32,489 bases of DNA from Acetobacteraceae bacterium (GTDB lineage: Bacteria > Pseudomonadota > Alphaproteobacteria > Acetobacterales > Acetobacteraceae), in contig JASHQG010000017.1 in the NCBI GenBank assembly GCA_030037665.1, positions 1-32,489 of the forward strand, read 5' to 3'. A program made the translations under genes and the position numbers. Each line of letters begins with the position of its first letter. Positions within the stretch are counted from its first letter, which is position 1. The notes under the pieces were generated by a model, which saw nothing but the letters and a program-made list of their open reading frames with translations, did not search any database and was not told where the DNA came from. Positions 18,211 through 31,161 of the stretch are shown here, one piece after another.

Positions 18211-18672
18211 TCATTCGGCCCCGCAGGCCGCAGCAATCGATTCGATGATCTTGTAGTAACCTGTGCAGCGGCAGAGATTGCCCATCATCCAATGCCGGAT
18301 CTCCGACCGCGTGGGGCGCGGATTGGCGTCGAGCAACGCCTTGGCCGCGAGGATCTGCCCAGGCGTGCAGATGCCGCATTGCAGTCCACCATGCGCCAGA
18401 AACGCTTCCTGAAGCGGATGCAGCCGGTCGCCATCTGCAATACCTTCGATGGTTGTGACGGCACCCCCATCGGCGTGTACCGCAAGCGCGAGACAAGAAC
18501 TTATCGGCTTACCATCGAGCAGTACGGTGCAGGCGCCGCATACGCCGACGCCGCAGCTCTCCTTGGTACCCGTGAGCTTCATATCCTCACGCAGAAACTC
18601 GATAAGCAGGCGGCTGTCCTGCACCTCGCGGCTGACGGACGCGCCGTTGAGCATGAGCGTGATGCGTCTCAT
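18211..18672 (-). CDS. Molybdenum hydroxylase, 2Fe-2S small subunit
   Basis: A 153-aa iron-sulfur subunit with both clusters intact. The plant-ferredoxin-type cluster uses C40, C45, C48 and C60 (CGVGVCGAC...C). The second uses C99, C102, C134 and C136 (QCGICTPGQ and GNLCRCTGY). It relays electrons between molybdenum cofactor and FAD. Its ATG overlaps the stop of the large subunit by ATGA, and the medium subunit starts one base after its stop, so the complex is made in a fixed ratio. Length and motifs are canonical. Confidence 0.95.
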   Translation of the reverse strand: MRRITLMLNGASVSREVQDSRLLIEFLREDMKLTGTKESCGVGVCGACTVLLDGKPISSCLALAVHADGGAVTTIEGIADGDRLHPLQEAFLAHGGLQCGICTPGQILAAKALLDANPRPTRSEIRHWMMGNLCRCTGYYKIIESIAAACGAE

Positions 18673-20951
18673 ACCGCGCCTACCCCGTCGCTGAGACCTT
18701 CGAGCACCTTTTCGGCGCTAACCGGCAGTTCGCACAATCGCACGCCCACCGCATCGAACACCGCGTTGGTAATCGCCGCCGGAAGCGCGACGTTGCTCAT
18801 CTCGCCAATCGCGGTAGTCGAGAACGGAGCGGCCCCGCTGCCACCCGGCATCAGAACGGTTTCGAGCTCGGGTATGTCCGCAATCGTCGGCAGCTTGTAG
18901 TCGCCGAGATGCGCAGTGATCACGGCGCCGTCTTTCAGAACGATCCGCTCGCTCAAGGCCTGGCCCATGGCCTGGATCAGTCCGCCCTCGATCTGACCTT
19001 GATGCGTAATCGGATTGACGATGGTTCCAACGTCGTGCGCGGTGACGACTCGGCGCAGGCGTACCTGCCCAGTCTCGCGATCAACCGCCACTTCGGCGAA
19101 ATGCGCAACAAAGCTTGTGCGATCGGTCGGCTGGCTGGGCGCGTTCTCGCCCTGGCAGCTCAACGGCGCCTTGCCGCGTGCCGTGCTCCAGGCCATGAGC
19201 GGACCCAAGGCAATCGTCGCGCCGGCCGCGGAAAACGATCCGTCCTCGCCCAGCCGGACGTCGGCGGGTGCGCAATTGAGCCGCTCCGCAGCGAGTGCTG
19301 TCAGGTCTTGCTTCATTGTGTCGGCGGCGGCGGCTATTGCCTGTCCAATCGTCGTCGTCAGCCGCTGGCCGCTGGAGCCGGCTTCAAAGCCGCTAGACAG
19401 CGTGTCGCCTTGCACAATGTGAACCTCGGCGACCGAGACGCCGAAATGCTCAGCCACGAGCTGCGCCGCAATTGTATGAAAGCCGGTGCCCGTATCGGGT
19501 GACCCGAGCATAAGAGTGAAGCGGCCATCGGCGCCCACGGTGAGCGTCACAGTTGATCGTCCGAAGTTGCCGGGCGGATGTCCATAGATCGAGATGCCGT
19601 GGCCGATATCGGGCGGCTTCGGCTTGTCCCAACCGAAGGCCCGAGCGCCCGCCTCGATGGTCTCGCGGCACCTCATATGCCGCCGGGTTTCGCCAAGCGG
19701 CGTCAAATCGCCGTCTATGATCGCATTGCGCTGCCGCATCTCAAGAGGATCAAGTCCCATCTCATGCGCGATCATGTCAATGTGGCTTTCGACCGCGAAA
19801 GCCACCTGCGGCGCACCAGGTGCGCGCATGTGGCCGCAAGGCACGGTATTGGTGTGGACGCGCAGCACCTGGATAGCGCAATTCGGCACACGATAAGTTC
19901 CGGCGAGCTCGGCATAGCCGCCGTGAAGCGTCGGCACGGGAACGAAGCCGGCATAGGCACCGGCGTTGAAGATCACCCGCGCCTCGATTGCAAGCAGCCT
20001 CGCGTCGGAATCGACTCCGGTGCGCAAAGTGACGCTGGCGGAATGCCGCGGGTTCCCCGCCGTCAGCTCCTCAAAGGAATTCATGATCATCTTGACTGGC
20101 CGGCGAGCGGCGCGCGCCAGTTCATAGCAGAGGAGCGTGTCCATCAGCGATCCCTTGCCGCCGAAATCGCCGCCGATCGCCACGGGATTGAACCGGATAA
20201 GATGCTCGGGCACGCCGATGGCGTCCGCCATGTGAGCGCGCGCGATATGCGGGCCTTTATTGGCGATCCAAACATCAATCAAGTCGTCTGCGCCGATTGA
20301 GACAAGGCAGGTGTGCGGCTCGATATAGCCCTGATGCACCGAAGGAACGGCGAAGTGATGTTCGAAAATCTTGTGCGCCGTCACGAAGGCGCGCGCGACA
20401 TCACCATGCCGCGCCCTGAACTGCGAGATCACGTTCGGAATCGGCGGATACATATTCAGCTCGCCGTGGCTCCTGGTCGCCACGCCTGGTTGGATCTCAA
20501 CTGATTCCGGATGGATGATGGGCGCGGTTGGCTGCATCGCGTCCTCAGGCCGCAAGACCGCCGGCAGCTCCACGTACTCGACATCGATCAGCTCCAGCGC
20601 GGCCTCCGCGATCTCGAGGGTATCGGCTGCGACAGCCGCCACTTTCTCACCGACGAAGCGGGTTACGCCTTTAGCGAGCAGTGGAATATCCTTGCACATA
20701 CGGCCATAGCGCGTATCAGGCACATCGGCGCCAGTCAGCACGGCATGCACGCCGGGCAGCGCTTTGGCACGTTGTACATCGATTGAGACGATGCGTGCGC
20801 TGGCATGTGGGCTGCGCATGCAGCGGCCGAAGAGCGTGCCAGGCAGCTCGACATCGCCGGCATAGCCGGCACGGCCTGTTACCTTGGCCACTCCATCCAC
20901 GCGTCGGATTGGCTCGCCCACGGCCTTGCCGCTCAGCCTTATTGCCTCCAT
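18669..20951 (-). CDS. Molybdenum hydroxylase, molybdopterin-binding large subunit (xanthine oxidase family)
   Basis: A 760-aa catalytic subunit that would hydroxylate a heteroaromatic ring, aldehyde or related substrate using water as the oxygen source. It opens RRVDGVAKVTGRAGYAGDV. Cofactor contacts include QGYIEPHTCL (207-216), AIGGDFGGKG (258-267), MRAPGAPQ (375-382) and EAGSSGQRL. Glu717 in AIGEMSNVALPAA is the expected catalytic base. The CO-dehydrogenase signature AYRCSFR is absent, so it is not CoxL. Start ATG 20951 fits the family; the ORF-track extension to 21113 is non-family. Order L-S-M. No maturation genes (XdhC, MobA, CoxDEF type) are adjacent. The substrate is unassigned. Confidence 0.93.
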   Translation of the reverse strand: MEAIRLSGKAVGEPIRRVDGVAKVTGRAGYAGDVELPGTLFGRCMRSPHASARIVSIDVQRAKALPGVHAVLTGADVPDTRYGRMCKDIPLLAKGVTRFVGEKVAAVAADTLEIAEAALELIDVEYVELPAVLRPEDAMQPTAPIIHPESVEIQPGVATRSHGELNMYPPIPNVISQFRARHGDVARAFVTAHKIFEHHFAVPSVHQGYIEPHTCLVSIGADDLIDVWIANKGPHIARAHMADAIGVPEHLIRFNPVAIGGDFGGKGSLMDTLLCYELARAARRPVKMIMNSFEELTAGNPRHSASVTLRTGVDSDARLLAIEARVIFNAGAYAGFVPVPTLHGGYAELAGTYRVPNCAIQVLRVHTNTVPCGHMRAPGAPQVAFAVESHIDMIAHEMGLDPLEMRQRNAIIDGDLTPLGETRRHMRCRETIEAGARAFGWDKPKPPDIGHGISIYGHPPGNFGRSTVTLTVGADGRFTLMLGSPDTGTGFHTIAAQLVAEHFGVSVAEVHIVQGDTLSSGFEAGSSGQRLTTTIGQAIAAAADTMKQDLTALAAERLNCAPADVRLGEDGSFSAAGATIALGPLMAWSTARGKAPLSCQGENAPSQPTDRTSFVAHFAEVAVDRETGQVRLRRVVTAHDVGTIVNPITHQGQIEGGLIQAMGQALSERIVLKDGAVITAHLGDYKLPTIADIPELETVLMPGGSGAAPFSTTAIGEMSNVALPAAITNAVFDAVGVRLCELPVSAEKVLEGLSDGVGAV

Positions 20952-21261
20952 GCGATCACCGCTCTCCGATTGGTCGCAGCGTGACCTCCGAGTGTATCCG
21001 CCACGTTCAGTATGGCAAGGAGACCAATGGCGGCACTCTGCATTTTTACGCCACGCTAATATTGAGCCGTCACCCATCAGGCTGACCTCGCCCCCTCGAA
21101 CAGCGGCGACCATTCCGGAAGCGTGATGCGCGTGGTTGCATCGTTATGGTCGCCGAACCCGGGCGATGAAATCGGATTATCGGGCGGCTATTTTTGTTTG
21201 CAACCCTGGAATGGGACACGTGCTCCCGCTCTCGGACAACCATGATCAGTGGTTCCTTAAC
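20952..21261. promoter_or_regulatory. Divergent intergenic region, Mo-hydroxylase operon versus enoyl-CoA hydratase pseudogene
   Basis: A 310-bp gap between divergent starts that should carry the Mo-hydroxylase promoter. I see no certain promoter boxes or operator symmetry. Both reading frames extend into it in the ORF track, but those extensions lack family similarity. Confidence 0.35.
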
Positions 21262-24936: not shown

Positions 24937-25292
24937 ACTGATGCCTTGGTCTACTTGTGCCCGGCATTGGGGATGGTGAGTCTGGTCTATGCACCGATGG
25001 GGGCGCTGCTGCCAGGCCTGTCTCCACCTCAAGCACTGTGCACTGGCGCCTCGACAGCCTACGGCCCGGGGCGCATTCTCGGCGCGTCGCTGATACCCTA
25101 TGCGGCTCAGCGCCTGCTCGGATACGATGGGCTTGCCGCGGTCGAGCTCTATATCAGCGGTGCGGCGGCGGTGATTTTGTGGCCTCGTTGTTCCTGTGCC
25201 AGGTTCCCACCGTCGCTGAGGAACGCAACGACAACACACTCTCGTCGAGTGTGAGAGGGGTAGCGCGGACCGCTTCACGTGCCCCTCCGTAA
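24937..25292 (+). pseudogene. C-terminal fragment of an MFS (metabolite:H+ symporter-like) transporter
   Basis: The frame encodes TM segments and the loop typical of the last third of sugar/metabolite:H+ symporters: MVSLVYAPMGALLPGL, then TGASTAYGPGRILGASLIPY, GYDGLAAVELYISGAA. The familiar family forms are ALPELFPTRVRYTGASLAYN-LGGILGASLAPY. Near 25180 the frame must shift by one base to reach VASLFL and the polar tail EERNDNTLSSSV. The N-terminal two thirds are absent, cut at repeat C3. The fragment cannot make a working transporter. It may once have imported the substrate of the neighbouring catabolic enzymes. Confidence 0.7.
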
Positions 25293-25311
25293 CAAAGTGA
25301 GGAGGAGGTGT

Positions 25312-26322
25312 ATGCGCTTCGGGGTCTTTGATCATCTCGACGACAGCAGCCGGCCACTCGTGCAGCATTTCGAGGAGCGGCTGCGCCTCACCGAGGCCTA
25401 CGATCGGGCCGGCTTTTACGGCTACCACCTGGCCGAACACCATAATACGCCCTTGGGCTATGCGCCCTCCCCCGGTATCTTTCTCGCCGCCGTCGCGCAG
25501 CGCACGACAAGGCTAAAATTCGGGCCGATGGTCTATCTCTTGCCGCTCTATCATCCGCTGCGCCTGATCGACGAAGTCTGCATGCTCGACCAGATGAGCC
25601 AAGGGCGGTTCCTCTACGGCGTCGGGCGGGGCATCTCGCCGATCGAAGTCGGATTCTACGGCGTTGATTTTGCGACCGGAACGGAGCGCTTTCGTGAAGC
25701 CTTCGAGGCGATCCGCATCGGCCTAACCGAAAACGTCCTGACGTTTCACGGCAAATATTACGAATTCGACGGCGTCCCGATCGTCATGAAGCCGCTGCAG
25801 AAACCTTATCCCGAACTTTGGTACGGAACGAGCCGGCCGGACAGCATCCCCTGGGCAGCCGAACGCGGCGCCCATATCATCACGCTGCGAGATACGACAG
25901 CGGCGCGCGCCATCATCGATCTTTATAAATCGGAATGGACGAACCTTGGCCGCGACGAGGCGGAGCTTCCGATGATGGGGATCAATCGGCACATCGTGGT
26001 CGCCCAGACCGAAACGGAGGCGCGTGAGATCGCTGGCCGGACGTATCGACCCTGGAGGCGGCACATGGAACTCTTGTGGGCGGAATACGGCGTCCCGTTT
26101 CCCCTCAAGGATTCACTGCCGGAGGAATGGGATGCGCTCCAGGCGCACGGTCACGGGATCGCCGGGACGCCGCGGCAGGTCCGCGACTATGTCGGCGCTG
26201 TCGCGGAGGCGGCGGGTGCCAGCTATTTTGTCTGCGACTTTGCCTTCGGCACGATCGCATACGAGGAGGCGCGACGATCGATCGATTTGTTCGCGAGCGA
26301 AGTGATGCCGGCATTCGCCTAA
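25312..26322 (+). CDS. LLM-class flavin-dependent oxidoreductase
   Basis: A 336-aa luciferase-like (bacterial luciferase/F420 reductase fold) TIM-barrel protein. It starts MRFGVFDHLDD, with YDRAGFYGYHLAEHH (34-48), LAAVAQRTTRLKFG and the conserved DQMSQGRFLYGVGRG. A C-terminal IAGTPRQVRDYV segment is the usual flavin-phosphate region. Such enzymes hydroxylate, desulfurise or perform Baeyer-Villiger oxidations with FMNH2, or use F420. Which flavin applies here is not clear. An ideal GGAGGAGG lies directly upstream. Same-strand neighbours are catabolic flavin enzymes, with the decayed MFS fragment just upstream, so this start region has survived a deletion event. Confidence 0.9.
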   Translation: MRFGVFDHLDDSSRPLVQHFEERLRLTEAYDRAGFYGYHLAEHHNTPLGYAPSPGIFLAAVAQRTTRLKFGPMVYLLPLYHPLRLIDEVCMLDQMSQGRFLYGVGRGISPIEVGFYGVDFATGTERFREAFEAIRIGLTENVLTFHGKYYEFDGVPIVMKPLQKPYPELWYGTSRPDSIPWAAERGAHIITLRDTTAARAIIDLYKSEWTNLGRDEAELPMMGINRHIVVAQTETEAREIAGRTYRPWRRHMELLWAEYGVPFPLKDSLPEEWDALQAHGHGIAGTPRQVRDYVGAVAEAAGASYFVCDFAFGTIAYEEARRSIDLFASEVMPAFA

Positions 26323-27205: not shown

Positions 27206-28090
27206 GTGCAACAGATAACCATCGGCGACATCACTATAGATGCAGTGGTCGAACGCGAGGGCCCCTGGCGCAGACCACAGGATTTCTTCCCGTTGTACGA
27301 CGAGGCGACCTTCATGCGACACCTGCCAGTGATGGAGCCGGAAGTTTTCGATGTCGCCTCGGGACGGATGTGCATCACGTACCAGACCTTCGTGGTTCGC
27401 TCGCCGCATCACACTATCCTGGTCGATACCTGCACAGGCGAGGACAAGGGCCATCCACCACCGTTCGACTTTCCCGGCAAACAACGATGGCGGAATGAGC
27501 TATTCGCGTTGGGCGTAAGCTACGACCAAATAGACTACGTGTTTTGCACGCATCTGCATATCGATCACACGGGCTGGAACACAACCCTGCACGACGGACG
27601 TTGGGTGCCAACGTTCCCGAATGCGAAATACGTGTTCCACAAACGCGAGTATGCAGCCTGGGAAGGGGAGCATGCCAAGGGCGCCAATCCGCCCGGCACG
27701 GTATTCCGTGATAACTGCCTGCCGATCGTGGAAGCAGGCCAGGCACTGCTGGTGGATGACGATTATGCCCTGGACGACACCATCACGTTGACGCCGACGC
27801 CCGGCCATTCACCATGTCATTGCTGCGTCAATATCTCCTCTCGGGGACAGCGCGCGATAGTAACCGGGGACATGATGCACCACGCGATCCAATGCCGAGA
27901 GGTCGCTTGGTCCCCTGGAGTCGACTGGGATCCAATCGAAGCAGCAGTCTCCCGGCGGCGGTTTTTGTCGTCGGTCACAGATACCGATACGTTGCTATTG
28001 CCGATTCACTTTCCGGCACCCACCGTTGGCCTGGTGACAACGGACGGGGACCGATTCAACTACCGGTTCAAGCGTGCAAGCTCGCCATGA
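27206..28090 (+). CDS. MBL-fold metallo-hydrolase (lactonase-like)
   Basis: A 294-aa zinc hydrolase of the metallo-beta-lactamase superfamily, closest in look to AHL-lactonase-like members. The zinc motif HLHIDH is at 116-121, H201 in TPTPGHSPCH, D222 in VTGDMMHH and H268 in LLPIHFP, so both metal sites are complete. No signal peptide, so cytoplasmic. GTG 27206 follows ACGGAGGACG at good spacing. It is 121 bp upstream of the HpaB-family hydroxylase on the same strand and plausibly co-transcribed, in which case it would open a lactone or ester made by the hydroxylase. Substrate otherwise unknown. Not closely similar to the other MBL gene at 620. Confidence 0.9.
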   Translation: MQQITIGDITIDAVVEREGPWRRPQDFFPLYDEATFMRHLPVMEPEVFDVASGRMCITYQTFVVRSPHHTILVDTCTGEDKGHPPPFDFPGKQRWRNELFALGVSYDQIDYVFCTHLHIDHTGWNTTLHDGRWVPTFPNAKYVFHKREYAAWEGEHAKGANPPGTVFRDNCLPIVEAGQALLVDDDYALDDTITLTPTPGHSPCHCCVNISSRGQRAIVTGDMMHHAIQCREVAWSPGVDWDPIEAAVSRRRFLSSVTDTDTLLLPIHFPAPTVGLVTTDGDRFNYRFKRASSP

Positions 28091-28211
28091 TGCCACGGCC
28101 GCGAAGCCTTTTCCGGTGGCTTCTGAGGACGTCTCGAAAGGCTCTTGTGCTGGTCGCGGTGTCCCTGCCGCCAGCCAGGAGAGACACGGCCATAACACCA
28201 AGGATTCACGC

Positions 28212-29681
28212 ATGAGAACTGGTGCCGAGTATCGCGAAGCATTGCGCGACGGCCGTAGGGTCTTCGTTATGGGCGAGGGCCACGTCCACGACGTGGTAAC
28301 CCACCCCGCGACAAGCGCGATGGTGGAGCAATACGTAGCTTGGTACGATCGCCATTTCGATCCTGCCTGGGCTGACACATTGCTTTCGCCACCCGATGTG
28401 AACGACATCCGCGTGCCTTGGGCTTTCGTGCTGCCGAAGACGAGCGCGGAGGTAATCGCGATCGGTCGCGCGATTCAAACAACGATTTTCCTCAGTGCCG
28501 GCAACATCACCCATACCCCTCAGTACGGCCACCTGATAAGCCTCGGTGTGTTGACCGCGGCCGAGACCCGCAATGCCGGCGCACATCACCCCGCCAACGC
28601 GATGGCCTATCGCGACATGATCGCCAGCACTGGCCGGTTCCTCACCTTTTGCGGCGGCGCACCCGTGATCGGCCAGCGGATGCGGGCCGATCCAATGGAC
28701 CGGGTCTCGGTCAAACGGGTGAGCGAGAATGACAAAGGCATGGTGGTACGCGGCCGGCTGGGCATGCACACAAGCCCTGCCTTTGCTGAGGATGTTTACG
28801 TCGGTACGCTGACTGGGCTCGAAATCGACGGACATCCAGCTGGGTTTATCGTCCCGGTCAATGCCCCCGGCGTCACCGTTCTGTGCCGCAAAGTCGCGAC
28901 CCGCGACCGTGACCGGTTCACCGCTCCGCTGTCCGCTCGGTACGACGAACTCGACGGCCAGATGTGGCTCGACAACGTGTTCATCCCATGGGAACGCGTG
29001 TTCGCCGTCGATCCCGAGCCGGAGGCGATTCCGCGCTGGTTGCGGTGGCACCACCTGCGCGGCTGGCTGGCCCGGGCTGAGTTTACCCTCGGTCTGGCGC
29101 TGGCATTGACCGACGCGATGGGACTCAAACAGCACGAGGCGACAGTCGGATACCTCGTCGATCTCATCGCCGAGGTCCAGGTCGTTCGCTGCTGCATCAT
29201 CGCCAGTGAGCATGATCCAGACTTCACCCCGACCGGCTACTGCGTCCCCAACCACGCGCACCTCGCGGCCGGCGGAATTGCGTTGCTAAAGGCGCGACAG
29301 CTCATGTCCGAACTGTTGCGCATCATCCCGGGATCCTCGCTGGTGATGGCACCGCTTAGCAGCGATTTGGAGATGCCCGAACTGGCGGCGGGCCTCGAGG
29401 AGGCGTTCGGCGGTGGCGGGTTCTCGGCACGCCAGCGTGCGGCGTTATTGCAGCTCGTGTGGGATCATGTCTCATCGTCGCTTGATGGGCGCGAATCGGC
29501 GTTTGAGCTACATGCCAGTGGCGGCCTGCCTGGCTGGCGTGCGTGGCTGCGCCGCAGCTTCAAGGATTACAACAGTCTTGCGAACGGTGTCCTTCACGCG
29601 ATCGATCTTCCCATGCCGGCGATCGACGTAGCCAGCATCCGCACCGCGCCGGTCGCGCCGCGGCGAACCGTTGCCCGATGA
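28212..29681 (+). CDS. 4-hydroxyphenylacetate 3-hydroxylase (HpaB) family oxygenase, divergent active site
   Basis: A 489-aa member of the HpaB/PvcC family of FADH2-dependent hydroxylases. The N-terminus MRTGAEYREALRDGRRVFV and VVTHPATS are family hallmarks, as are DKGMVVRGRLGMHTSPAFAEDVYV and DGQMWLDNVFIPWERVF. In the Thermus enzyme, substrate residues lie in RTPDY (Arg100, Tyr104) and LTH (His142). Here the matching places read HTPQY (101-105) and LTF (144-146): Tyr kept, Arg and His replaced. A non-phenolic or differently charged substrate is likely. ATG 28212 follows AAGGA; the ORF-track start at 28074 overlaps the MBL gene. No HpaC-type reductase is nearby. Confidence 0.88.
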   Translation: MRTGAEYREALRDGRRVFVMGEGHVHDVVTHPATSAMVEQYVAWYDRHFDPAWADTLLSPPDVNDIRVPWAFVLPKTSAEVIAIGRAIQTTIFLSAGNITHTPQYGHLISLGVLTAAETRNAGAHHPANAMAYRDMIASTGRFLTFCGGAPVIGQRMRADPMDRVSVKRVSENDKGMVVRGRLGMHTSPAFAEDVYVGTLTGLEIDGHPAGFIVPVNAPGVTVLCRKVATRDRDRFTAPLSARYDELDGQMWLDNVFIPWERVFAVDPEPEAIPRWLRWHHLRGWLARAEFTLGLALALTDAMGLKQHEATVGYLVDLIAEVQVVRCCIIASEHDPDFTPTGYCVPNHAHLAAGGIALLKARQLMSELLRIIPGSSLVMAPLSSDLEMPELAAGLEEAFGGGGFSARQRAALLQLVWDHVSSSLDGRESAFELHASGGLPGWRAWLRRSFKDYNSLANGVLHAIDLPMPAIDVASIRTAPVAPRRTVAR

Positions 29682-30021
29682 CGTTGCGGCATCGATTGTG
29701 CGTTCGAGCGCGGGCTATCCTGTTCGCCACGCCGTTGCGCGGGGCGGCGGCTCGGGGCCGAACACGCTTCGGCCGCCGTATTGGAACGACCGCACTCGTT
29801 CATGGGCGAACCGCACTTCCATCGACGGTCTGCTTGTGAACTGCTCCGGGTGACGGGCCCGTTTGTCCAGGCACCGGATCGCCGCCAGGAGGAGTCCGCC
29901 CCGGCCTGTCACATCGGTACTTTCGGTCTCGGGTTGTCGGCAGTGCGCCTTTTCTCTTGCCATCAGCGAGCTAGTTCCCGAAACACCCGCCGATCGAATC
30001 AGTGCTGACATGCGGCTTTGA
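29682..30021. other. Intergenic stretch without a convincing gene
   Basis: In 340 bp only short chance frames occur. None has a ribosome site or a motif I recognise. No terminator hairpin with a T-run was found after the HpaB-family gene. Confidence 0.4.
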
Positions 30022-31161
30022 ATGCCATTCATCTGTCCCCGTCGCACGCTGCTCGCCGCCCTGCCGGCCTCGGTTGCGGCCTGCGCTGCGCCCCGTCTCA
30101 CGCCGCCGCTGCCATCTCGCGGCACCCGCCTCGTACTTGCCCCCGTCGATGTCGCTCGCGACCGAATCATTCGCATTGATGTTGGCCTGCGCCCATTCCG
30201 CCCTGCCGGCTTTGTCGTGCGCAACGAAATTCTCGGTGACAAAACGATCGTGCACAATTACGGGCACGGTGGCGGTGGTGTCACACTTTCCTGGGGCACC
30301 GCCGCGCTCGCCCTCGAGCAGGCTCCGCCCGCGCGCCACTGCGCCGTGCTCGGCTGCGGCGCAGTCGGCCTTGCCACCGCGCGGCTTGCCCAGGAGCGCG
30401 GCATGCAGGTGACCGTCTACGCTGCCGCGCTTCCGCCCGATACCACGTCGAACGTCGCCGGTGCACAGTGGTGGCCGTCTTATGTTTATGACGAAGACGC
30501 GTTGACTTCTGCATTCCGCGTGCAGTTCGTTCGCGCAGCCGGCCTCGCGTACCATCGCTTTCAGACTCTGCCGGGCGAGACCTACGGCATAAGCTGGCGA
30601 CGCAACTACGTCGTCCGCGCCACGCCTTATCGGGAACCGCCGCCCGACGACCGGTCCATGGCGCTTACGGATCTCTGTATCGAGTGCCGCATCCTCGAAC
30701 CTCGCGAAAACCCGTTCCGCGGGTTCTTCACGCGCCAGTTCGATACCATGATGATCGAACCAGCCCTGTATCTGCCCGCGCTGATGCGCGACGTGCGCGA
30801 AGCGGGCGGCCGCATTGTGGTGCGGCGGTTCAACACACCCGCAGACATATTGCGCCTTACCGAACCCGTCGTGTTCAACTGCACTGGCCTCGGCGCGCGC
30901 GACCTGTTCGGCGATTACGACCTCATTCCCGTGAAGGGCCAGCTCGTCGTGGTGCTGCCGCAACCGGAAGTCACCTACAACATGATCGGTGACGCTATCT
31001 ATGCATTCCCGCGCCGCGATGGCGTTCTGCTCGGCGGCACCGAACAACGCGGTGTCTGGACCCTTACCCCCGATCAGGCGGAAGTCACGCGCGTGCTGGC
31101 AGCGCAGAAGTCGGTCTTCAAGAGTCTGGGGTACCGCGACACTGTGACGGAGGGTGTCTGA
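30022..31161 (+). CDS. Circularly permuted D-amino-acid-oxidase-like FAD oxidoreductase with export signal
   Basis: A 379-aa flavoprotein. It carries all the blocks of D-amino-acid/D-aspartate oxidases but in rotated order. First comes the normally C-terminal part: VGLRPFRP (54-61) and HNYGHGGGGVTLSWG (78-92). Next is the normally N-terminal FAD fold AVLGCGAVGLATARL (108-122) and TTSNVAGAQW (141-150). Then follow the middle domain, FNCTGLGARDLFGD (285-298) and GVLLGGTEQRG (334-344). The N-terminus has twin arginines and a lipobox-like end (PRRTLLAALPASVAAC), suggesting a Tat-exported lipoprotein. ATG 30022 lacks a strong ribosome site. Expected chemistry is oxidative deamination of an amino acid or related amine with O2 or another acceptor; this is inferred from the fold. 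Confidence 0.82.
   Translation: MPFICPRRTLLAALPASVAACAAPRLTPPLPSRGTRLVLAPVDVARDRIIRIDVGLRPFRPAGFVVRNEILGDKTIVHNYGHGGGGVTLSWGTAALALEQAPPARHCAVLGCGAVGLATARLAQERGMQVTVYAAALPPDTTSNVAGAQWWPSYVYDEDALTSAFRVQFVRAAGLAYHRFQTLPGETYGISWRRNYVVRATPYREPPPDDRSMALTDLCIECRILEPRENPFRGFFTRQFDTMMIEPALYLPALMRDVREAGGRIVVRRFNTPADILRLTEPVVFNCTGLGARDLFGDYDLIPVKGQLVVVLPQPEVTYNMIGDAIYAFPRRDGVLLGGTEQRGVWTLTPDQAEVTRVLAAQKSVFKSLGYRDTVTEGV

Follow-up and report, generated by a model that had tools for sequence, protein, structure and literature searches.

The window analysed here, a stretch of 32,489 nucleotides, is an entire contig (C694) of an Acetobacteraceae genome (GCA_030037665.1) that is divided among 803 contigs and is 96.7% complete and 6.3% contaminated. 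Near its 3' end, on the forward strand, lies a complete gene (30022..31161, +) for a 379 amino acid flavoprotein of the D-amino-acid oxidase (DAAO) family, which scores 128.9 bits against the Pfam DAO profile (PF01266; curated cut-off 27.9, E=4e-37). The forward-strand frame is backed by relatives, and two overlapping minus-strand ORFs (29971-31047 and 29715-30257), for which there was no support from relatives or families, are probably shadow frames produced by coding DNA of high GC content. The ATG is immediately preceded by an in-frame TGA (30019-30021); the protein therefore cannot extend further upstream into an additional FAD domain, which rules out the missing upstream domain that the preliminary description had named as grounds for rejecting its interpretation. 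No second DAAO copy was found in the source genome. The gene looks monocistronic, with an HpaB-type hydroxylase gene (28074-29681, +) as its nearest same-strand upstream neighbour, and the window also contains genes for a metallo-beta-lactamase-fold protein (27206-28090, +), a luciferase-like monooxygenase (25279-26322, +) and the large subunit of a molybdopterin dehydrogenase (18669-21113, -). Molybdenum dehydrogenase genes are likewise found near the permuted DAAO gene at two Gemmatimonadota loci (L057 and L062). There was no PHROG match to indicate a link to viruses or phages.

The full set of sequence blocks that characterise the family, i.e. GxGxxG, TTxxxAGxxW, NCTG, GxRPxR and YGHGGxG, was recognised in the sequence and in alignments. 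Their order is rotated exactly as the preliminary description had listed it. The chain opens with a putative export signal (30022..30093, +; core residues 7-21), followed by a rotated segment (residues 48-100; 30163..30321, +) that aligns to residues 280-331 of human D-aspartate oxidase (DASPO) and 274-324 of pig DAAO. Within this segment are GLRPFRP (residues 55-61; 30184..30204, +), in which R57 is the aligned equivalent of Arg283, the residue of pig DAAO that binds the substrate carboxylate, and the DAO signature block HNYGHGGGG (78-86; 30253..30279, +), with H78, Y80-G84 and G86 invariant. A new junction at residues 100-106 (30319..30339, +), placed by a rotation scan and the predicted structure, connects the formerly C-terminal helix to the opening strand of the FAD fold, after which come the dinucleotide-binding (FAD) motif GCGAVG (111-116; 30352..30369, +; G111, G113 and G116 invariant), TTSNVAGAQW (141-150; 30442..30471, +; S143 invariant), corresponding to the FAD-contacting TTxxxAG-W block, and FNCTG (285-289; 30874..30888, +; N286 and G289 invariant). 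Further downstream are Tyr327 (31000..31002, +), aligned to the active-site Tyr228 of pig DAAO, an LGGT block (337-340; 31030..31041, +), and a new C-terminal helix (352-367; 31075..31122, +) that is internal in canonical DAAOs (241-254 in the homologue L172).

Comparison with solved structures showed the same arrangement. In a phmmer search, residues 106-359 aligned with residues 14-264 of human DASPO (6rkf) and residues 50-98 with residues 280-331 (E=1e-31 for the whole match), the N-terminal stretch alone matching the C-terminal portion of that structure with an i-Evalue of 1e-6, and pig DAAO gave the same two-block pattern. The Pfam DAO profile was covered from position 2 to 300 of 353 by the protein as encoded, and from 2 to 350 in one stretch once the sequence had been computationally un-rotated. 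When the cut was moved along the chain in steps of four residues and each rotation was locally aligned to four canonical-order bacterial DAAOs, all four comparisons placed the optimum at residues 96-108, and alignment scores rose from 260 to 318, 199 to 242, 166 to 224 and 205 to 283. The top phmmer score against the PDB was not raised by un-rotation (112.3 versus 113.4 bits), because the two stretches are scored separately there, and in some targets they were joined.

An AlphaFold2 model built with 66 relatives was of high confidence (pLDDT 90.8, pTM 0.87), with pLDDT values of 97-99 over residues 41-100, including the HNYGHGG segment. The predicted elements run E49-59, E65-71, E74-80, H90-100, E106-110, H114-125, E129-134 and so on to H352-367, and those of a canonical Acidobacteriota homologue run E5-9, H13-24, E28-33 and so on to H241-254, E262-273, E279-285, E288-293 and H301-317. 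The two lists are identical except that the last four elements, three strands and a helix that form the canonical C-terminal end, are shifted to the front, so that the model predicts a DAAO-like three-dimensional arrangement from equivalent elements in rotated order. The best Foldseek matches were all DAAO or DASPO, over approximately 275-290 aligned columns of chains of about 335 residues; no full-length PDB match was returned, as expected of an order-dependent aligner, which cannot align the moved end.

Sequence, profile, rotation scan, predicted structure and approximately 90 relatives with the same block order, which was every relative inspected, all back the earlier contention that this is a true rotation and not a truncation, and the ORF is confirmed as a circular permutation of the DAAO fold. 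Given that the canonical N-to-C block order is absent, we classify the protein as a permuted DAAO variant rather than an ordinary family member. A fragmented and partly contaminated assembly might be thought to invite another reading, in which the block order is an artefact arising from a frameshift, from an assembly join or from the loss of a canonical copy in front of a truncated second one. Such an origin is extremely improbable, since the in-frame stop abuts the ATG, a second copy is absent from the genome, none of the loci retrieved contains an ORF in which the moved block (YGHG) occurs twice, and the approximately 90 independent genes of the same order, some from complete genomes such as that of Sphingomonas sp. 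7/4-4, refute it.

The preliminary description regarded a permuted flavo-oxidase as a rare natural case and proposed a database search for the same block order. A scan of the genome collection revealed at least 563 matching loci, so that rarity does not hold. The best 80 of these loci belong to Acidobacteriota, Gemmatimonadota, Verrucomicrobiota, Pseudomonadota, Myxococcota, Bacteroidota, Zixibacteria and Dadabacteria, and plasmid and genome searches added rhizobia, acetic acid bacteria and Nonomuraea; the rotated form is therefore present in hundreds of bacteria from at least eight phyla. Within the host's phylum it was found in 20 of 399 sampled genomes, among which a canonical-order query detected no extra DAAO; additional places hit by that query in two genomes (G381 and G559) were without YGHG and look like glycine oxidases. 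A canonical-order DAAO does occur in the phylum, in Vibrio (L095). Among 149 Acidobacteriota genomes, permuted genes were counted in ten and canonical-order genes in six. The counts for both phyla vary with query and cut-off. One Acidobacteriota genome (G711; contigs C16, C40 and C42) has four permuted genes, which suggests paralogous diversification.

In a quick-search tree of 82 rows, for which the permuted proteins were un-rotated, permuted and canonical proteins fell on the two sides of one branch with an SH-aLRT support of 100. As the permuted forms are one clade, one permutation event is enough to account for them; the lack of two-copy ORFs leaves a duplication intermediate undocumented. 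Three permuted clades were distinguished: clade A, with the motif GLRP[FY]RP, to which the window protein belongs; clade B, with CLRPFRA, mostly from Alphaproteobacteria including acetic acid bacteria; and clade C, from rhizobia, Nonomuraea and relatives, which branches first if the root, as assumed, lies on the canonical side. Other members of the host's family have clade B proteins, approximately 39% identical to the window protein, whereas the latter, of clade A, reaches up to 55% identity over the tree columns with relatives in Hyphomonadaceae and Bryobacteraceae. This mismatch is possibly the result of horizontal transfer or of a foreign contig, and the finding of a permutation is unaffected by either.

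No single conserved neighbourhood was found for the whole permuted family, context being clade-specific, nor was a conserved substrate-specific neighbour found for clade A. In Sphingomonadales and related bacteria, the permuted gene is flanked by hslV and hslU, all in the same orientation, at 15 of 15 such loci (L002/L128, L027, L035, L037, L047, L055, L059, L060, L074, L076, L083, L085, L131, L132 and L133). Two rhizobia (L089:2476-6702 and L090:2363-6690) carry a cluster of three genes, in which a signal-less clade C permuted DAAO gene is placed between those for a BBE-type FAD oxidoreductase and a TPP-dependent enzyme.

The N-terminus of the window protein, MPFICPRRTLLAALPASVAAC, displays, by eye and by pattern, twin arginines (R7-R8; 30040-30045), a hydrophobic stretch and a lipobox-like VAAC ending at Cys21 (30082-30084). 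Twin arginines occur within the first 30 residues of all 85 clade A and B proteins checked, although the choice of start codons favoured them, and a strict lipobox pattern was present in 63 of the 85. Nearly all permuted proteins thus appear, judging by their N-termini, to have Tat-type and often lipoprotein signals. In clade C, four of five proteins are signal-less and start 25-27 residues ahead of the RP motif, and the fifth has a Tat-like signal. Rotation and export are therefore separable, which leaves the earlier suggestion that the permutation may allow the export signal unsupported, and export is weakened as the reason for the permutation.

The substrate-binding arginine R57 is invariant in 71 of 71 sequences. 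At the position of Y327, clade A has tyrosine in 51 of 64 sequences and histidine in 10; the equivalent of pig DAAO Tyr224 is not kept, being G323 in the window protein. Where DASPO has Arg237, which serves in binding the acidic side chain, the aligned residue is E341, a substitution that does not fit a D-aspartate oxidase. The LGGT block, of which G338 and G339 are near-invariant in clade A, is absent from clade B, as is the Tyr228 equivalent. Retention of R57 and Y327 supports, by homology, D-amino-acid oxidation in clade A, and the window protein is most likely an exported D-amino-acid oxidase or dehydrogenase, a description in which we infer both the substrate and the electron acceptor.

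The explanation that we consider probable is that of a permuted DAAO-family enzyme, exported by the Tat system and anchored to lipid, which would oxidise D-amino acids in the periplasm. The mature protein begins with what is the C-terminal end in canonical enzymes (the GLRPxRP strand, HNYGHGGxG and the helix after them); a short linker ties this end to the strand that opens the FAD fold, and the last element of the chain is the helix that formerly preceded the GLRPxRP strand. The protein would presumably fold and load FAD in the cytoplasm, be exported in the folded state and become lipid-anchored at Cys21. In the periplasm it may convert D-amino acids, derived for example from cell-wall turnover or from soil, to imino or keto acids, with oxygen or, possibly in some clades, cytochrome c receiving the electrons.

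The choice of electron acceptor marks one departure from this explanation. The same permuted fold could act as a periplasmic D-amino-acid dehydrogenase delivering electrons to cytochrome c or quinone instead of oxygen, as is suggested by a small secreted cytochrome c gene immediately 3' of the permuted gene at ten clade B loci from nine Acetobacteraceae genomes of acetic acid bacteria (L096 and L119-L127), by a Kozakia neighbourhood that includes genes for a DAO-family protein, a serine hydrolase, S9 and S15 peptidases and a TonB receptor, and by a CxxCH protein encoded 20 bp downstream at a Longimicrobiales clade A locus. For clade B, where the LGGT block and tyrosine are lost and a cytochrome c gene adjoins, dehydrogenase use is the natural reading. 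The window protein, however, is of clade A and has no cytochrome among its neighbours, and canonical DAAOs are oxygen-using oxidases, so that we regard this alternative as rather unlikely. A different substrate, such as another amine, a D-amino-acid-containing peptide or a 2-hydroxy acid, is a further departure and one that we doubt. The carboxylate-binding arginine is the only constant active-site residue, clade B shows the losses just described, and the contexts differ between clades (hslV/hslU, cytochrome c, or BBE oxidase with TPP enzyme), all of which is compatible with such a change; against it, clade A, including the window protein, keeps R57 and mostly Y327, and DASPO and DAAO are the best matches among solved structures.

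For the family as a whole we put forward a more tentative evolutionary proposal, at somewhat short of even confidence: a single ancient permutation may have founded a large, mostly Tat-exported bacterial DAAO branch that became the main form in the sampled proteobacteria, part of which was rewired from oxygen to cytochrome c for periplasmic D-amino-acid respiration. Among flavoenzymes DAAO is a textbook case, and it is in wide use as a biocatalyst. A natural permutation that probably arose once and spread over many phyla offers a natural experiment on new chain ends in a two-domain flavoprotein, in which the effects of permutation and of export can be told apart because some relatives have a signal peptide and others do not. 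The cytochrome-linked subgroup would allow a direct test of the conversion of an oxidase scaffold into a respiratory dehydrogenase. Standard annotation is order-dependent and labels the permuted genes only as 'FAD-dependent oxidoreductase', aligning them in part, so that the extent of D-amino-acid oxidation in the bacterial periplasm may be underestimated.

The marks of bacterial DAAOs have been given as GxRPxR and YGHGGxG in a search that makes no mention of permutation (PMC9844085), and for Asaia, an acetic acid bacterium, a 'D-amino acid oxidase' is listed among its released proteins (PMC12502724). No permuted DAAO was found in the literature searched, an absence that is not proof, since subscription papers and preprints lay outside the search; D-amino acid oxidase and circular permutation were co-mentioned only in a review dealing with fluorescent sensors for neurotransmitters and in one paper on thermophilic proteins, in neither case in the title or abstract.

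Among known systems, the window protein is closest to DAAO and DASPO (human 6rkf, pig 1kif/1an9 and Rhodotorula 1c0k; EC 1.4.3.3/1.4.3.1), with which it has in common every FAD and substrate block, the invariant substrate arginine and corresponding elements of secondary structure, and among which it has its best sequence and fold matches. It differs in that the last three strands and helix stand at the front, that the chain terminates within the former substrate-domain region, and that it has a putative Tat or lipoprotein-type N-terminal signal, whereas DAAO and DASPO are cytosolic or peroxisomal. Canonical bacterial DAAOs, such as those of Tsukamurella (L092), Nocardia (L093), Streptomyces (L094), Vibrio and Acidobacteriota (L169-L174), have GxRPxR and YGHGGxG in common with it, but last in the chain rather than first, and the two kinds form separate clades. 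The D-amino-acid dehydrogenase DadA and the glycine oxidase ThiO, from the wider DAO superfamily (PF01266), share the superfamily fold, FAD motif and chemistry class, but lack the rotated order, and the window protein scored below the NCBIfam cut-offs for both (ThiO 49.2 bits against 250.8; DadA 18.4 against 383). Both the fold and the chemistry of this family, like the family itself, are already known; what appears to be new is a large, widespread and mostly exported permuted sub-branch, with a function predicted by homology.
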